Source: Planctomycetaceae bacterium
GTDB lineage: Bacteria > Planctomycetota > Phycisphaerae > Phycisphaerales > SM1A02
Direction of reading: 5' to 3'
Length of the DNA stretch: 35,856 nucleotides
Assembly: GCA_002683215.1 (NCBI GenBank)
Contig: NYSY01000105.1
Span: 1 to 35,856, forward strand
Under the pieces are notes generated by a model, which did no database searches, was not told the DNA's origin, and saw nothing but the letters and a program-made list of their open reading frames with translations. The translations under genes and the position numbers were made by a program. Positions 4,386 to 12,608 of the stretch are shown piece after piece; position 1 is the stretch's first letter, and each line of letters starts with the position of its first letter.

Positions 4386-7300
4386 TCAACCGGTCGAGAG
4401 CGAGGTCGAGTCGCGAGGCCTGGAATCCTCGGGCTCCTTGGCGCCGACGCTCCAGGTGAGTGGTGCCGCGATCACGACCGAGGAGTAGGTCGCTGCGACC
4501 AGGCCCACGAAGAACGTGAAGGCGAACGGCCGGATCCCAGTACCGCCGAGGGAGTAGAGCACGATCGCCGAGGTGATCGTGGTGCCACTGGTCATGATGG
4601 TGCGGCTGAAGGTCTGGTTGATCGAATTGTTCACCACGCCGCGCGACGCATAGCTGAGCTTTCCGCGGTTCTCGCGAATGCGGTCGAGGATGACGATGGT
4701 GTCGTTGAGCGAATAGCCCACGATGGTGAGCAGGCCGGCCACGACGTTGAGATCGATGCGGAATTCATCGAGAAGCCGGAAGCCCCCGATGGAACGCTCG
4801 CCGATGGTGAGACTGAGGGCGATCGCACCGAGACAGATGCTGATGTTGAAGACGAGGGCCGCGATCGCGCAGACCGAGTAGCGAAGCGAACCGAAACGGA
4901 ACCAGATGTAGACCAGCATGCCGAGCAGACTGAGAATCACCGCCACGATCGCGCTGGCCGCGAGGTTCTGGGCGACCTTCGGCGAGAAACTGGACTGGTC
5001 GAGCGTGGCTTCGCGGGTGAGTGCCGCCTGAAGGAGTTCGTACTCCCGCTGGGCGAGACCCCGGTCCCAGGTTCCGAGGGCGACCTCGAAGCTCGAGAGG
5101 GTGTCGTCGAAGACCATGACCGCGATCTCGCGGTGGGCGCCCTGCTCGGCCTTGTCGAGCCCGACGATCTCGACGTCGCGGCCGGCGGTGTCCGCGAAGT
5201 CTGGCTGGTTGCGCATCCGCTTGATGCGCTCCGCCGCGTCTTCGAGGGTGATCGGTGGCGTGATGCCGTCGATGACCACCGCGACGCCGCCGCGGAAGGC
5301 GTCCACCTGGATGCCTGCTCCATCGCGTCCGATCGATTCGCCGAGCGTCTTCCGCTCCAGGGAGAAGGTGTGGGGGCTGTGGTCGGGATCGTCTTCGGCC
5401 GCGAAGTGCACGGGCTGGGTGACCGCGAGCTCGTCACCGAACCGGTCGACGATCGCGGCCACGATCGCGTCCGCGATGTTCTCGTCCTCGTTCATCCCCG
5501 GCGGGTTGGCGACCTTGATCTGGAAGCTGGCGGCTTCACTGTCCGCGGTCGTCGTGCCGACGGTGAGGATCGTCGCGTTCGAGAGCTGGGCGAGGGTCGG
5601 ATCGTCCGGATTCTCGTCGCCGATGGCGTGGATCCGGTCTTCGACGTCGCTGCGGGCGAGCAGCAGGCGTCCTGCGAGTTCCCGCTCGGTGCCGGCGTTG
5701 TCGCCGGCCTCCGCTCCGCGGGTGGTCATCTTGACGCTCACGCCACCTCGGAACTCGGTCTCCAGCACGTCGGCGCCACGCGAGATGAAGAGCGCGAGCG
5801 AACCGATCGCGAGGATCGCGCTCAGGAACAGCATCGGGCCTCGGACCGAAATCCAGTCGATCTTCGGTTCGAGCAGGCGGTGAATCGAGGGGAACACCGT
5901 CGGCAGCATCGGAAGCGACCGGATCTTGAAGACCTCGGTGCAGACCGCGAACAGCACCCGGCTGACGAAGAGCGAGGTGAAGAGGGTCGCGAGGACGCCG
6001 ATCGACAGGGTCAGGGCGAAGCCCTTCACCTCCGTCGCGGCGGTCTGGTAGAGGATGAAGCAGACGATCAGGTTCGTGATGTTGCCGTCGAGAATCGCGC
6101 TCGAGGCCTTGCTGAATCCCAGCCGGATCGAATCTCGGAGGTCCTCTCCGTTGTTCACCAGCTCCTCTCGGATGCGTTCGAAGATGAGCACGTTCGTGTC
6201 GACCGCCATGCCGACGGTGAGCGCGATGCCCGCGAGCCCGGGCAGCGTGAAGGTTCCGTCGATCATCGCCATGATCCCGAAGATCATGACGGCGTTGATC
6301 ATCAGCGAGATGTCGGCGATCAGTCCGGCACCGAAGTAATACAGGATCATGATCAACGCGACGATGCCCACGGAGATCGCGACGGCTTCGAGGCCGCGGA
6401 CGAGGTTGTCCTGGCCGATCGCCGGTCCCAGGATGCTGGTCGAGATCGGCTCGCTGCTCAGCCGTGCTTCGAGGCTCCCGGCGGCGAGCACGCGGATCAG
6501 ATAGGTCACTTCGGCTTCACCGAAGTTGCCCGAGATGATGCCGCTCGAACCGATGGCGGAGTTCAGGTTCGGGGCGGTGTAGACCTCGCCGTCGAGCACG
6601 ATCGCCATCGGCTGGTTCACGTTCGGGGACGTGAGTCGTCGCATTCGCGAGCCGCCGGCGCTGTCGAGGCCGAAGGACACCGCGGGTCGACCGAGGTCGT
6701 CGATCGTCCGGCCGGCTCTGCGGATCGCCCACGCGTCGCCATCGGTGTGCGTCATGCTCTTTTCGGGCGTGACGTAGAGGAGGATGTACTGCTTGCCGTC
6801 CTTCGCCGCCGCGATGAGTCCGTAACGGTTCTTGAAGTACGAGACGGGATCGGCCAGCAGGGCTTCGATCGTCTCGGGCTTGTCCTCGTCGGTCCATTGC
6901 TTGAGATCGTTGATCGCGAACCAGCGTGCGATCGGGGAATCCGTGTTGTTGGGCCCCCGCTCGGCGAGCTGCTCGCGAAGGAGGGTGACCGGCACGTCCA
7001 TGGCGCCGTCCCGGACCGCGATTCGGAATTCGAGGACTCCGGCGCCACGAAGCAGCCGCTTGAGATCCTCGGGGTCGTCGAGTCCGGTCCGTTGCGCCTC
7101 GAAGGCGGCGTAGTCCGAGCGAAGGCTGCCGATCTCCGACTTGAGGTGCGGGAACTCGGCTTCGAGTTCGGCGAACGCGACCGCCCGTTCACTGCTGGAA
7201 GCGTCGAGTTCGCCGTCCTCGCCACGCTTCTTCGCGACGCCGTTGAGGGCGAGGATGTTGAAGAGTCGGTCGTCACCGAAGGTCTGGGAGAGAATCGTGT

Positions 7301-7886
7301 TCTCGAGCGTCTCGACCGTGATCTCGGATCGGGCGATTCGATCGAGCAGACCGTCGACCGTGGTCGCATCGACCGGGTCCGCGGCTTCCGCGATCGTGAG
7401 CTCCGCACGGGCGGCACGGGCGTCGTTCCACGCCGTCTGGAGCCGCTCGAATTCGGCCCGACGGGCGTCGGTGCCCCCGAACCGCGCCGCGGCGTCGCCG
7501 GCCTCCAGGGCCGCTTCGAGCTGGCTCGGTCGGATGCGGGAGACGGCGAGCAAGCCCTCGAGCGAATCCCGATACGTCTGCTGCAGCGCCCGGACGTCGT
7601 CGTTCGGAAGCGGCATCACCACTTCGATCCGGTCCCGACCGACCGGCTGCATCGCGATGTCGAGGATGCCCTGCGGGTTCACCCGCTGCTTCAACACGTC
7701 GATGGTCTGTGCCAGCACCTCGTCCGGATCCGAGTCGTCCGCGACCTTGACGGAATAGATGAGGCTCACGCCGCCCTGGAGATCCTTGCCGAGCCGGATC
7801 TTCGTCTTCGGTGGATAGACCGAGAAGACGCAGACGCCGACGATCAAGCCGATCAGGATGAGACAGAGAGGGATGTAGTTCTTCAT
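4386..7886 (-). CDS. secDF: Protein translocase SecDF fusion
   Basis: SecD motifs GKDLQGGVSLIY, LKQRVNPQGI, AVDTNVLIFERIREEL, FSKASSAILDGNITNLI; SecF motifs LETEFRGGVSVK, GYSLNDTIVILDRIREN, SINQTFSRTIMTSGTT. Confidence 0.95.
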   Translation of the reverse strand: MKNYIPLCLILIGLIVGVCVFSVYPPKTKIRLGKDLQGGVSLIYSVKVADDSDPDEVLAQTIDVLKQRVNPQGILDIAMQPVGRDRIEVVMPLPNDDVRALQQTYRDSLEGLLAVSRIRPSQLEAALEAGDAAARFGGTDARRAEFERLQTAWNDARAARAELTIAEAADPVDATTVDGLLDRIARSEITVETLENTILSQTFGDDRLFNILALNGVAKKRGEDGELDASSSERAVAFAELEAEFPHLKSEIGSLRSDYAAFEAQRTGLDDPEDLKRLLRGAGVLEFRIAVRDGAMDVPVTLLREQLAERGPNNTDSPIARWFAINDLKQWTDEDKPETIEALLADPVSYFKNRYGLIAAAKDGKQYILLYVTPEKSMTHTDGDAWAIRRAGRTIDDLGRPAVSFGLDSAGGSRMRRLTSPNVNQPMAIVLDGEVYTAPNLNSAIGSSGIISGNFGEAEVTYLIRVLAAGSLEARLSSEPISTSILGPAIGQDNLVRGLEAVAISVGIVALIMILYYFGAGLIADISLMINAVMIFGIMAMIDGTFTLPGLAGIALTVGMAVDTNVLIFERIREELVNNGEDLRDSIRLGFSKASSAILDGNITNLIVCFILYQTAATEVKGFALTLSIGVLATLFTSLFVSRVLFAVCTEVFKIRSLPMLPTVFPSIHRLLEPKIDWISVRGPMLFLSAILAIGSLALFISRGADVLETEFRGGVSVKMTTRGAEAGDNAGTERELAGRLLLARSDVEDRIHAIGDENPDDPTLAQLSNATILTVGTTTADSEAASFQIKVANPPGMNEDENIADAIVAAIVDRFGDELAVTQPVHFAAEDDPDHSPHTFSLERKTLGESIGRDGAGIQVDAFRGGVAVVIDGITPPITLEDAAERIKRMRNQPDFADTAGRDVEIVGLDKAEQGAHREIAVMVFDDTLSSFEVALGTWDRGLAQREYELLQAALTREATLDQSSFSPKVAQNLAASAIVAVILSLLGMLVYIWFRFGSLRYSVCAIAALVFNISICLGAIALSLTIGERSIGGFRLLDEFRIDLNVVAGLLTIVGYSLNDTIVILDRIRENRGKLSYASRGVVNNSINQTFSRTIMTSGTTITSAIVLYSLGGTGIRPFAFTFFVGLVAATYSSVVIAAPLTWSVGAKEPEDSRPRDSTSLSTG

Positions 7887-8382: not shown

Positions 8383-8386
<4 letters not shown>
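7961..8386 (-). CDS. yajC: Preprotein translocase subunit YajC
   Basis: From M at 8386: LLFMFLPLILVMILFSVFGQRKERKKREALLSSVKKHDRIRTIGGVIGSVVELNTDTVVLKVDESSNTRMTFGRDAV. Lies between tgt and secDF; 4-bp overlap with the tgt stop. Confidence 0.92.
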
Positions 8387-9644
<1,258 letters not shown>

Positions 9645-9648
<4 letters not shown>

Positions 9649-10898
9649 CGTCGAGAAGCCTCGCGAAGGGTCTTCTTCTCCTTCGATGTGAGACTCTGCA
9701 GGCCGTCGGCATGGATCTTCGCGAGGATCCGATCGATTTCGCTGTCGGCCACCTTCGAGCCACCCGAGCCGCGCACCTTGCCCGCCCGGTAGGCGGCGCC
9801 GCTCCGGCTCGTGGGGTCGTACCGGCCGAGGAAGTCGAAGAAGCCGTGGAGGCTGTGCGGGTGACGGATCAGCCAGAATCCGGCGACCGCGCCCCCGATG
9901 TGGGCCGCCTCGCCGCCCGCGTTGTCACCGCCGAAGAGCACCGAGAACAGCGCCAGTCCGACCAGGCCGTAGGCCATGGTCGAGAGTTTCATCGGGATCA
10001 CGAAGAACAGAAGCACTCGCGCATTCGGCATCAGGAACGCCGAGGCGATCACCACGCCGAACACGCCGGCGCTCGCCCCCACCAGCGGAAGTCCGGGGTC
10101 GTTGACCAGAAGCACCGGGAACTCGCGTCCGGTGAGCTGCAAGGCGGTCCAGCCCGCGAAGTTCAGAAGCAGGTAGGCCGCGGCACCGGCCATGCCGCAG
10201 AGCAGATAGAAGGCCAGATACCGCTTTCTTCCCAGGTACTGCTCGACCATGCTCCCGAAGAAGTAGAGCCCGATCATGTTGAACAACAGGTGGGTCAGGT
10301 TCGCGTGCAGGAACTGAAAGCTGATGAACCGCCAGAACTCGAAGCCCCGCAGGCCCCAGAATTCATCGAGTTGGAGGAGCGCCCTCGCCGTGGAAAAGTA
10401 GCCGTAGGCCCAGATCGGCCCCTTGATCGCGACCTCTTCGAACAGTTGGACGGTCCCCTTGCGGGTGGCGCCCGCTTCGTCCCGGATCGTGTACGTGCCC
10501 GTGGCGAGCTTCGGCCCGTTTTCGGTCGCCTCGATGATCGGTAGAGAGTAGAAGCCTCGCGGGTTCGAAGGCAGTCCGGGAATCGCGGTGGGCCTGCCGC
10601 CGGGCGGTGCCGCGGTGAAGACGGGCCAGCTTCCATCCTTGATCTGCGTCAGGGACGGAAGTCGCAGCGCCGTCCGGTCCACCGGATCGAGCACGGCCCC
10701 TTCCGGAAGGCCTGGGGCCATCGAACGGAGCGGGGCGATGGTCGCTGGAAGGAACTGATCGAGCACGAACACCGCGATACAGATCGTGATGATCCAGCGG
10801 TTGATCGACCACTGACGTGGGCCACCCCCGCCTCCACCCGGGCGGAATCGCCCCGGCTCGCCGCTCTGCCTCGCGTAGTCTCGGTCGTAGACGCCCAT
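9645..10898 (-). CDS. Rhomboid family intramembrane serine protease
   Basis: FWRFISFQFLHANLTHLLFNMIGL, active-site Ser motif GASAGVFG, His motif AAHIGGAVAGF. Confidence 0.92.
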
Positions 10899-10926: not shown

Positions 10927-12012
10927 TCAGCGGTCGGAATTCCCCGGGTCGCTCGGAGCGGACCCGTCACGGCGTCGCTGGGTCGCGGCGTCGAGCACCG
11001 CCCGTTCGGTCTCGTCCAGTGAGGCCAGGCCGTCCGTCTTGATCTTGGCGAGGATCCGATCCATCTTCATTTCGGCGGCGTCGACTTCCGCGATCCGGCG
11101 CTCTTCATGCTGACGACTGGCCTCCGCATCGGCCTCCGCCGACTGCTGGTCGAGCAACGCATCGAGTCGAAGGTCGATGACGTCCGGCGGCCCCCCACCG
11201 ACCGCATCGGCGGCCGCTTCCAGCCGCTGGTGTTCGCGATGCAGGCACGCGGCGGAGAGCAGGGCCACGAGGACGAGGACGGCGTTGAGGGCGAGGATGC
11301 CCACGATGCCGAGTACCACGGTGGTGGTCACCCCGACCCGATGCGCGTAGCGGCGGGCGCGGGCATTGCCGACCCTCGGCTGGATGACCGCTTCGAACAT
11401 CGCGGCGCCGCGGAACGGCGGCGCCGGGAGCAGGTTCGCGCCACTCACGAGAATCGCGGCGACCCCGAACAGGTAAAGCGATTCGAGCCATGCGGAGGTG
11501 GCGACCTCGGGCGAATAGATGCCCGTGAAACCGAACGGATCGGGCGATGGCGTCACGTTCGTCTCGAGGAGGAGCCCCGCCATGGCGGCGACGGCGAGGA
11601 AGAGCGTGACGAGGGGGCCGGATACGGCGATCAAAAACGCTGATCGCCAGTCGGCCGGCATCGCGATCGCCTCCATGCCACCGAGGGGTTGGAGGATGAC
11701 TTCGGGCATGTCGCCACCCAGCTGTCGCGCCACGAGCATGGTCACGCACTCGTGAATGAAGACGCAGCCGCACAAGGACGCAAGAAACACCGCGGCGGGC
11801 AGCGGACCGAGGAGGAAACTGGAATCTCCTGCGAACCATCCGGCCCGGAAGAGGATGGTCACGACCGTCCCGAGCAGCACGGCGTGCGCTCGAAACACGG
11901 TGCCGCCGAGGCGGAGCACCGGGACCGACCAGGTCAGGGGATCTCCGAACCGCGGGGTGGAGGCGAAGTTTCGGAGATCGCCGCCCGTGGAGCGGCCGCC
12001 GTTCATCTTCAT
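10927..12012 (-). CDS. M50/site-2-protease-like membrane protein, probably inactive as a metalloprotease
   Basis: Multi-TM protein with FIHECVTMLVARQLGGDMPEVILQPLGGM and ANLLPAPPFRG at the positions of HExxH and the LPxxPLDGG motif. ATG at 12012 overlaps the upstream Nudix stop (ATGA). Confidence 0.75.
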   Translation of the reverse strand: MKMNGGRSTGGDLRNFASTPRFGDPLTWSVPVLRLGGTVFRAHAVLLGTVVTILFRAGWFAGDSSFLLGPLPAAVFLASLCGCVFIHECVTMLVARQLGGDMPEVILQPLGGMEAIAMPADWRSAFLIAVSGPLVTLFLAVAAMAGLLLETNVTPSPDPFGFTGIYSPEVATSAWLESLYLFGVAAILVSGANLLPAPPFRGAAMFEAVIQPRVGNARARRYAHRVGVTTTVVLGIVGILALNAVLVLVALLSAACLHREHQRLEAAADAVGGGPPDVIDLRLDALLDQQSAEADAEASRQHEERRIAEVDAAEMKMDRILAKIKTDGLASLDETERAVLDAATQRRRDGSAPSDPGNSDR

Positions 12013-12608
12013 GCCGGCCATGCGGCACCTCCCGCCTGCCTGGCTCGGAACAGGTGCCATGCGGTGATGCTCTTGCCGTCGTCGAGGCTTCCGTCGAGGA
12101 TCGCGGCATCGATCGAGGCCGGTGACATCGGGACCACCTCGATCTCCTCGCCCGGTTCGAGGCGACGTGGGACGGGTTCAAGCCCGGTCGCGACGAAGGC
12201 GTGCATGCGTTCATCACAGAATCCGGGACTCGTGTAGTACGCGCCGATCGCGTCGATCCGGCCGGCCCGGCGTCCGACCTCCTCCTCGAGCTCCCGTCCG
12301 GCGGCGAGGTCCGGGCGTTCGTCCGGTTCGAGCTTCCCCGCGCAGAATTCGAGCAACATCCGTCCGACCGGGAGCCGCCCCACCCGGATCATCAGGATGG
12401 TTCCGTCGGATTCGATCGGGATGACCGTGACCGCGCCCGGATGCCGGACGACGTCCTTTCGAATCCGCCGGCCTCCGAGGTCGAACTCCCGGCGTTCGAC
12501 CCGGATGACGGGGCCGACGTGCGTGACCACGGTTTCGCTGTCGGAGCCGGCCGGGAGCACCTGGCTCCCGGTCCCGAGGTCATCATTCGATTCGTGACGC
12601 GTTTGCAT
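12009..12608 (-). CDS. Nudix hydrolase (ADP-ribose pyrophosphatase-like)
   Basis: Nudix box GKLEPDERPDLAAGRELEEEVGRRAG; GAYYTSPGFCDERMHAFVATGL. Start ATG (MQTRHES) at 12608; the track ORF extends falsely into mlaF. Confidence 0.88.
   Translation of the reverse strand: MQTRHESNDDLGTGSQVLPAGSDSETVVTHVGPVIRVERREFDLGGRRIRKDVVRHPGAVTVIPIESDGTILMIRVGRLPVGRMLLEFCAGKLEPDERPDLAAGRELEEEVGRRAGRIDAIGAYYTSPGFCDERMHAFVATGLEPVPRRLEPGEEIEVVPMSPASIDAAILDGSLDDGKSITAWHLFRARQAGGAAWPA

Follow-up and report, generated by a model that had tools for sequence, protein, structure and literature searches.

A putative catalytically dead site-2 protease next to an intact rhomboid in planctomycetes, with Arg or Lys at the sites of lost zinc ligands

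Does the M50-like gene at 10927-12012 of this planctomycete DNA still encode a protease and, if not, what could its product do beside a rhomboid protease? The window, i.e. the whole stretch of 35,856 nucleotides that was analysed, carries this gene in a cluster whose features are collected in Table 1. A preliminary description had proposed that the second His of HExxH is replaced by Thr (HECVT) and the ligand Asp of NLLPxxPLDGG by Arg (PPFRG), and that both metal-binding motifs are apparently lost. Translation of the reverse strand confirmed the two replacements, in the FIHECVT stretch (FIHECVTMLVARQLGG) and in the NLLPAPPFRG stretch (NLLPAPPFRGAAMF), respectively. The motifs are thus lost only in part, as His87 and Glu88 are retained and only the second His and the Asp are replaced. 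In site-2 proteases (S2P), zinc is liganded by both His residues of HExxH and by the Asp of the DG motif. Since the residues aligned with these ligands are H87, T91 and R201, the standard zinc site is absent. Of the motifs that mark a site-2 metalloprotease as active, the HExxH of a transmembrane helix is replaced by HECVT (HExx(T/N) in nine species) and LDG/NxxPxxxxDG with its Asp ligand by PFRG (in the same number of species). An alternative HExxH that could be the real site was looked for in the membrane domain and none was found, the only other HE being located in a linker. A separate M50 protein with HELGH is present elsewhere in the same genome. An in-frame ATG is also found upstream, at 12060; two orthologues align from residue 1 of the protein as given here.

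Table 1. Features of the M50-rhomboid cluster in the window
Feature	Position	Strand	Evidence or remark
M50/S2P-like pseudoprotease (putative), 361 aa	10927..12012	(-)	translation and PF02163 scan
Peptidase_M50 domain, residues 76-233	11314..11787	(-)	PF02163, 44.1 bits
H87-E88, first ligand and glutamate of HExxH, both kept	11749..11754	(-)	
T91 in place of second His ligand	11740..11742	(-)	Thr/Asn across genus and sister genus
R201 in place of LDG Asp ligand	11410..11412	(-)	Arg in 9/9 species, two genera
DUF6576-like C-terminal tail, residues 316-342	10987..11067	(-)	20.5 bits
Rhomboid protease, 28 nt downstream of the M50-like gene	9645..10898	(-)	GASAG Ser and His intact; DUF6576 tail
NUDIX hydrolase-like, overlaps start of M50-like gene	12009..12608	(-)	own start estimated; motif GRELEEEVGRRAG in translation
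tgt (queuine tRNA-ribosyltransferase-like), next in cluster	8383..9648	(-)	translation
secDF, fused ORF	4386..7886	(-)	

The hydrophobic architecture of an S2P had been described as kept, and this was corroborated at the level of family and predicted fold. The protein matches PF02163 with 44.1 bits, above the curated cut-off of 27.2, as do all 62 of its aligned relatives. The profile of this 62-sequence family matches mjS2P of Methanocaldococcus jannaschii (3B4R) at 137 bits, with the motifs in register with HELGH and PMDGG. The AlphaFold2 model has a pLDDT of 90, and Foldseek returned 3B4R first (TMt 0.73-0.76) and SpoIVFB second; a different fold is ruled out by this match to S2P structures. 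The S2P fold was predicted for two degenerate lineages. The best reading of sequence and model together is that 10927-12012 encodes a catalytically dead site-2 protease.

The gene is found in seven of the eight sampled genomes of the window's genus. HExxT or HExxN together with PFRG occurs in all seven of them and in both species of the sister genus, so that the conservation expected among close orthologues is seen in nine of nine species from two genera. A sequencing error or a single-strain mutation is ruled out by these altered motifs common to nine species. Orthologues with an intact HExxH at the same column, which would have spoken for such an accident, do exist, with LDG and at the same locus, in other genera of the family; none occurs within the two genera. 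The loss is therefore lineage-specific, and similar losses arose independently in other lineages. The dN/dS ratio (NG86) of the gene is about 0.16-0.24 within the genus. Degenerate M50 genes overall give 0.14-0.24, whereas most intact relatives range over 0.05-0.17 and the adjacent rhomboid gene over 0.06-0.11. Fixed motifs and low dN/dS indicate an old change that has become fixed and is maintained by purifying selection, of slightly lower strength than that acting on the intact enzyme. Catalytic residues are thus gone from a gene under purifying selection, as in an intramembrane pseudoprotease, and the view of a selected pseudoprotease rather than a decaying gene gains weight from the fixed motifs, the open frames and the dN/dS values. 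When related loci were searched for, close relatives were limited to two MAGs at about 80%, from Phycisphaerae and Planctomycetia, and the one other match, in Streptomyces, was remote.

In 162 homologues, the residues in the His1, Glu, His2 and Asp columns of the site were read: 96 have HEHD, 64 lack at least one metal ligand, one has HDHD and one is incomplete. The degenerate sites comprise RERD (25 proteins; genera g3, g92, g124, g137 and g81), HETR/HENR (9; His-Glu-Thr-Arg being the site of the window's genus and its sister genus), HDRA/HDRP/QDRP/ADRA (10; His-Asp-Arg-Ala/Pro in genus g11), HERT/HERP/HERA (6; genus g6), HEKD/HERD (9; family f4) and REHD/REKD/REGD/KERD (5). Arg or Lys occupies at least one of the three ligand columns in every one of the 64, to be compared with a background of 0.35% of cells in the remaining core columns of the helix. 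An acidic residue is retained in the Glu column of all 64 (Glu in 54, Asp in 10), and all have an open reading frame. A second set of 30 homologues was chosen by low profile score, with sites unseen, after the Arg/Lys rule had been formed. Twenty of these had lost a ligand and the rule was obeyed in 20/20, 12 of them coming from five genera for which there was no earlier degenerate example. The number of cations at the site equals that of acids exactly in 52 of the 64 degenerate proteins, a correspondence spread over too few independent lineages for inference. Two further observations concern early states of the site. Genus g69 (L246, L249-L253, L257, L259) has intact HEHD beside altered REHD, REGD, REKD and KERD, which makes it well suited to studies of how ligand loss begins. 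In the HDHD protein (L247; G293, genus g122) all three metal ligands are present and the catalytic Glu is Asp; judged from its sequence, it is possibly a zinc-binding but inactive intermediate.

Loss of metal ligands in the S2P of this planctomycete group is recurrent, having happened several separate times, although the trees differ in the count. The Ffh+SecDF tree (30 genomes) requires at least five losses even when weak branches are collapsed. The rhomboid tree, which covers more genera, requires at least 6 at branches with support of at least 95, 11 at branches of at least 80 and 14 when fully resolved. The M50 tree alone, poorly resolved at depth, supports 1-5. A lost His became Arg or Lys in about 23 of 27 lineage changes, as counted by hand. 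In GC-rich DNA, one step commonly turns a His codon into an Arg codon, with an expected share of 20-46% of His missense changes under a simple model; mutation thus explains part of the pattern, and Arg alone is unsurprising. Even with Arg at 46%, the chance of about 23/27 is 3e-5. What exceeds the mutational expectation is this lineage-level frequency, together with the occurrence of Lys, the changes from Asp to Arg, and the fact that cation and acid persist while other lost ligands drift.

These data bear directly on relaxed decay, according to which the M50 protein is no longer needed, Arg is merely the easiest mutation of His and the gene is heading for deletion. Such decay would fit the favoured mutational outcome, the deletion of the gene between NUDIX and rhomboid genes in several sister genera, and the faster divergence of the membrane domain in degenerate lineages (between-genera identity of 26%, versus 40% among intact M50 proteins). 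It accounts poorly for open frames and a retained acid in every one of the 64 proteins, for dN/dS of 0.14-0.24 against 0.05-0.17 in intact ones, and for an Arg that stays constant throughout genera in which the other lost ligands vary (A/T/P, H/Q/A). Furthermore, a single step does not suffice for Asp to Arg, as in the window's genus, or for His to Lys, as seen elsewhere. We therefore regard decay as unlikely.

The reading that we favour, as probably correct, is that the window's protein is a metal-free pseudo-S2P carrying a cation in place of Zn2+ and serving the rhomboid encoded beside it as a non-catalytic partner. The side chain of an Arg or Lys would take the place of Zn2+ and pair with the buried Glu and, where it is kept, the Asp. 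In the window's genus, this putative ion pair would be R201-E88, with T91 where the second His was, and the cation probably assumes the electrostatic role of Zn2+ beside Glu88. Such a cation-acid pair could keep the membrane core neutral and folded without metal. That charged residues are conserved across genera in a buried site, and that the LDG Asp is retained in most degenerate lineages, might also be expected if a metal-free or otherwise liganded site (e.g. Arg/Glu/Asp) still acted on membrane substrates by a different chemistry. Unlike a conserved active site, however, the composition varies by lineage (HETR, RERD, HDRA, HERT), and we know of no family with a centre of the Arg/Glu/Asp type, which further counts against it. 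Continued catalysis of this kind thus appears very improbable.

What a non-cutting S2P might do is suggested by its neighbourhood. The preliminary description had pointed to an intact, co-oriented rhomboid nearby and had considered a regulatory or chaperone role conceivable; the Ser and His of this rhomboid are indeed in place. The order M50 to rhomboid is found across the bacterial order, the rhomboid gene usually lying 16-160 nt downstream on the same strand; the two are adjacent on one strand in nearly all loci with a contig long enough. Whatever the state of the M50 protein, the rhomboid Ser is intact in 157/157 and the His in 153/153 readable cases. The NUDIX-like gene keeps its order relative to M50 in relatives, and secDF is near the pair there as well. 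In the window, SecD and SecF appear to be encoded together, by a single ORF of 1166 aa close to the two protease genes. The gene at 8383..9648 (-) is one that we take to be tgt. Among 15 genomes with no detected M50, NUDIX directly precedes the rhomboid gene in 10, indicating that M50 was deleted there (L140-L143, L145, L146, L149, L151-L153; genera g5, part of g11, g14, g15, g17, g23); the other five have a contig edge, no recognisable NUDIX, or the gap of G114. This member of the window's genus is unusable as a case of gene loss, tgt, rhomboid and M50 all being missing, probably by an assembly gap. As the deletions fall in genera of the same family, one locus shows intact, degenerate and deleted states. 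Several genera have the rhomboid and no M50, hence the M50-like partner is dispensable.

The C-terminal tail provides a second link. In the window's protein the match to DUF6576 (PF20216) is below the cut-off (20.5 versus 27.3 bits); in aligned M50 relatives it is found in 61/62 at E<=0.01, with a best value of 5e-10. The rhomboid at 9645-10898 ends in DUF6576, the tail motifs being DRILxKIxxxGxxSLxxxER in one protein of the pair and DRILDKxxxxGLxSLTxxEK in the other. Between-genera identity of the tail is 48% for intact and 46% for degenerate M50 proteins. Among open-licence papers we found no literature on DUF6576, and none on M50 together with rhomboid in planctomycetes. The tail and the gene order tie the M50-like protein to the rhomboid, and its most likely job would then be to bind, present or withhold rhomboid substrates; scaffold and tail may assist the active rhomboid non-proteolytically, by handling its substrates or by gating. 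Kept fold, buried acid, compensating cation and tail taken together, the dead S2P is most simply viewed as a scaffold. Adjacency and a common tail fall short of proof of an M50-rhomboid complex. The pseudoprotease could instead act independently of the rhomboid, for instance in export alongside secDF or, like plant EGY3, as a stabiliser of membrane proteins, the synteny being that of an old operon. The presence of tgt and secDF in the cluster and the EGY3 precedent (PMC9355673, PMC10978774) are consistent with this, but the DUF6576-like tail is shared with the adjacent rhomboid specifically, and we consider such independence quite unlikely. A gene that stays intact beside a working rhomboid, with Arg or Lys where zinc was bound, suggests that the protein persists for a role other than cutting, as a partner whose own charge replaces the metal. 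The wider proposal, that S2Ps repeatedly become metal-free pseudoproteases in which Arg/Lys neutralises the buried Glu/Asp and the scaffold becomes a regulatory subunit of the adjacent rhomboid, is put forward tentatively, as plausible rather than probable.

If the cation-for-zinc rule is true, it accounts for the loss of a buried metal site from a protein that stays folded, and it offers a sequence signature for finding other pseudo-metalloproteases. A further suggestion from the locus is a possible module of two proteins, an S2P-like one and a rhomboid, that have the DUF6576-like tail in common. Because one syntenic locus offers states from intact through partly and more strongly degenerate to deleted, the path from enzyme to pseudoenzyme is traceable and testable. 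Much is known about rhomboid-class pseudoproteases. Replacement of a zinc-ligand His by Arg is known from at least one of the carbonic-anhydrase-related proteins, which are soluble and have a fold unrelated to S2P. No Arg-for-metal precedent was found in the accessible parts of a paper on the metal-site pseudoenzyme PID-5, and the passages that a term search brought up in a review of bacterial S2Ps (PMC10202637) contained no pseudoprotease. Among open-licence papers we found no S2P pseudoprotease other than plant EGY3, which is weak evidence of absence.

Compared with known systems, the window's protein resembles mjS2P in fold and motif positions (TM 0.73-0.76, 137 bits); mjS2P has intact HELGH and PMDGG, whereas here Thr stands for the second His and Arg for the Asp. 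SpoIVFB (8VJL), the second-best fold match, is a bacterial S2P that differs in being an active enzyme with intact HELGH/PLDGG and in having no DUF6576 tail. EGY3, a chloroplast S2P pseudoprotease of plants reported to stabilise other proteins (PMC10978774, PMC9355673), is likewise an S2P homologue without the zinc motif that was retained in evolution; the accessible parts of these papers mention no Arg/Lys-for-zinc pattern, rhomboid neighbour or DUF6576 tail. Its authors describe it as confined to plants (PMC9355673), and together with intact orthologues of the window's protein in the same bacterial order this suggests a separate origin. Finally, the iRhom rhomboid pseudoproteases (PMC3149277) are also inactive intramembrane proteases, retained as regulators of active intramembrane proteolysis. 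Their fold is different, and the roles are distributed otherwise in the window, with a dead S2P beside a live rhomboid.
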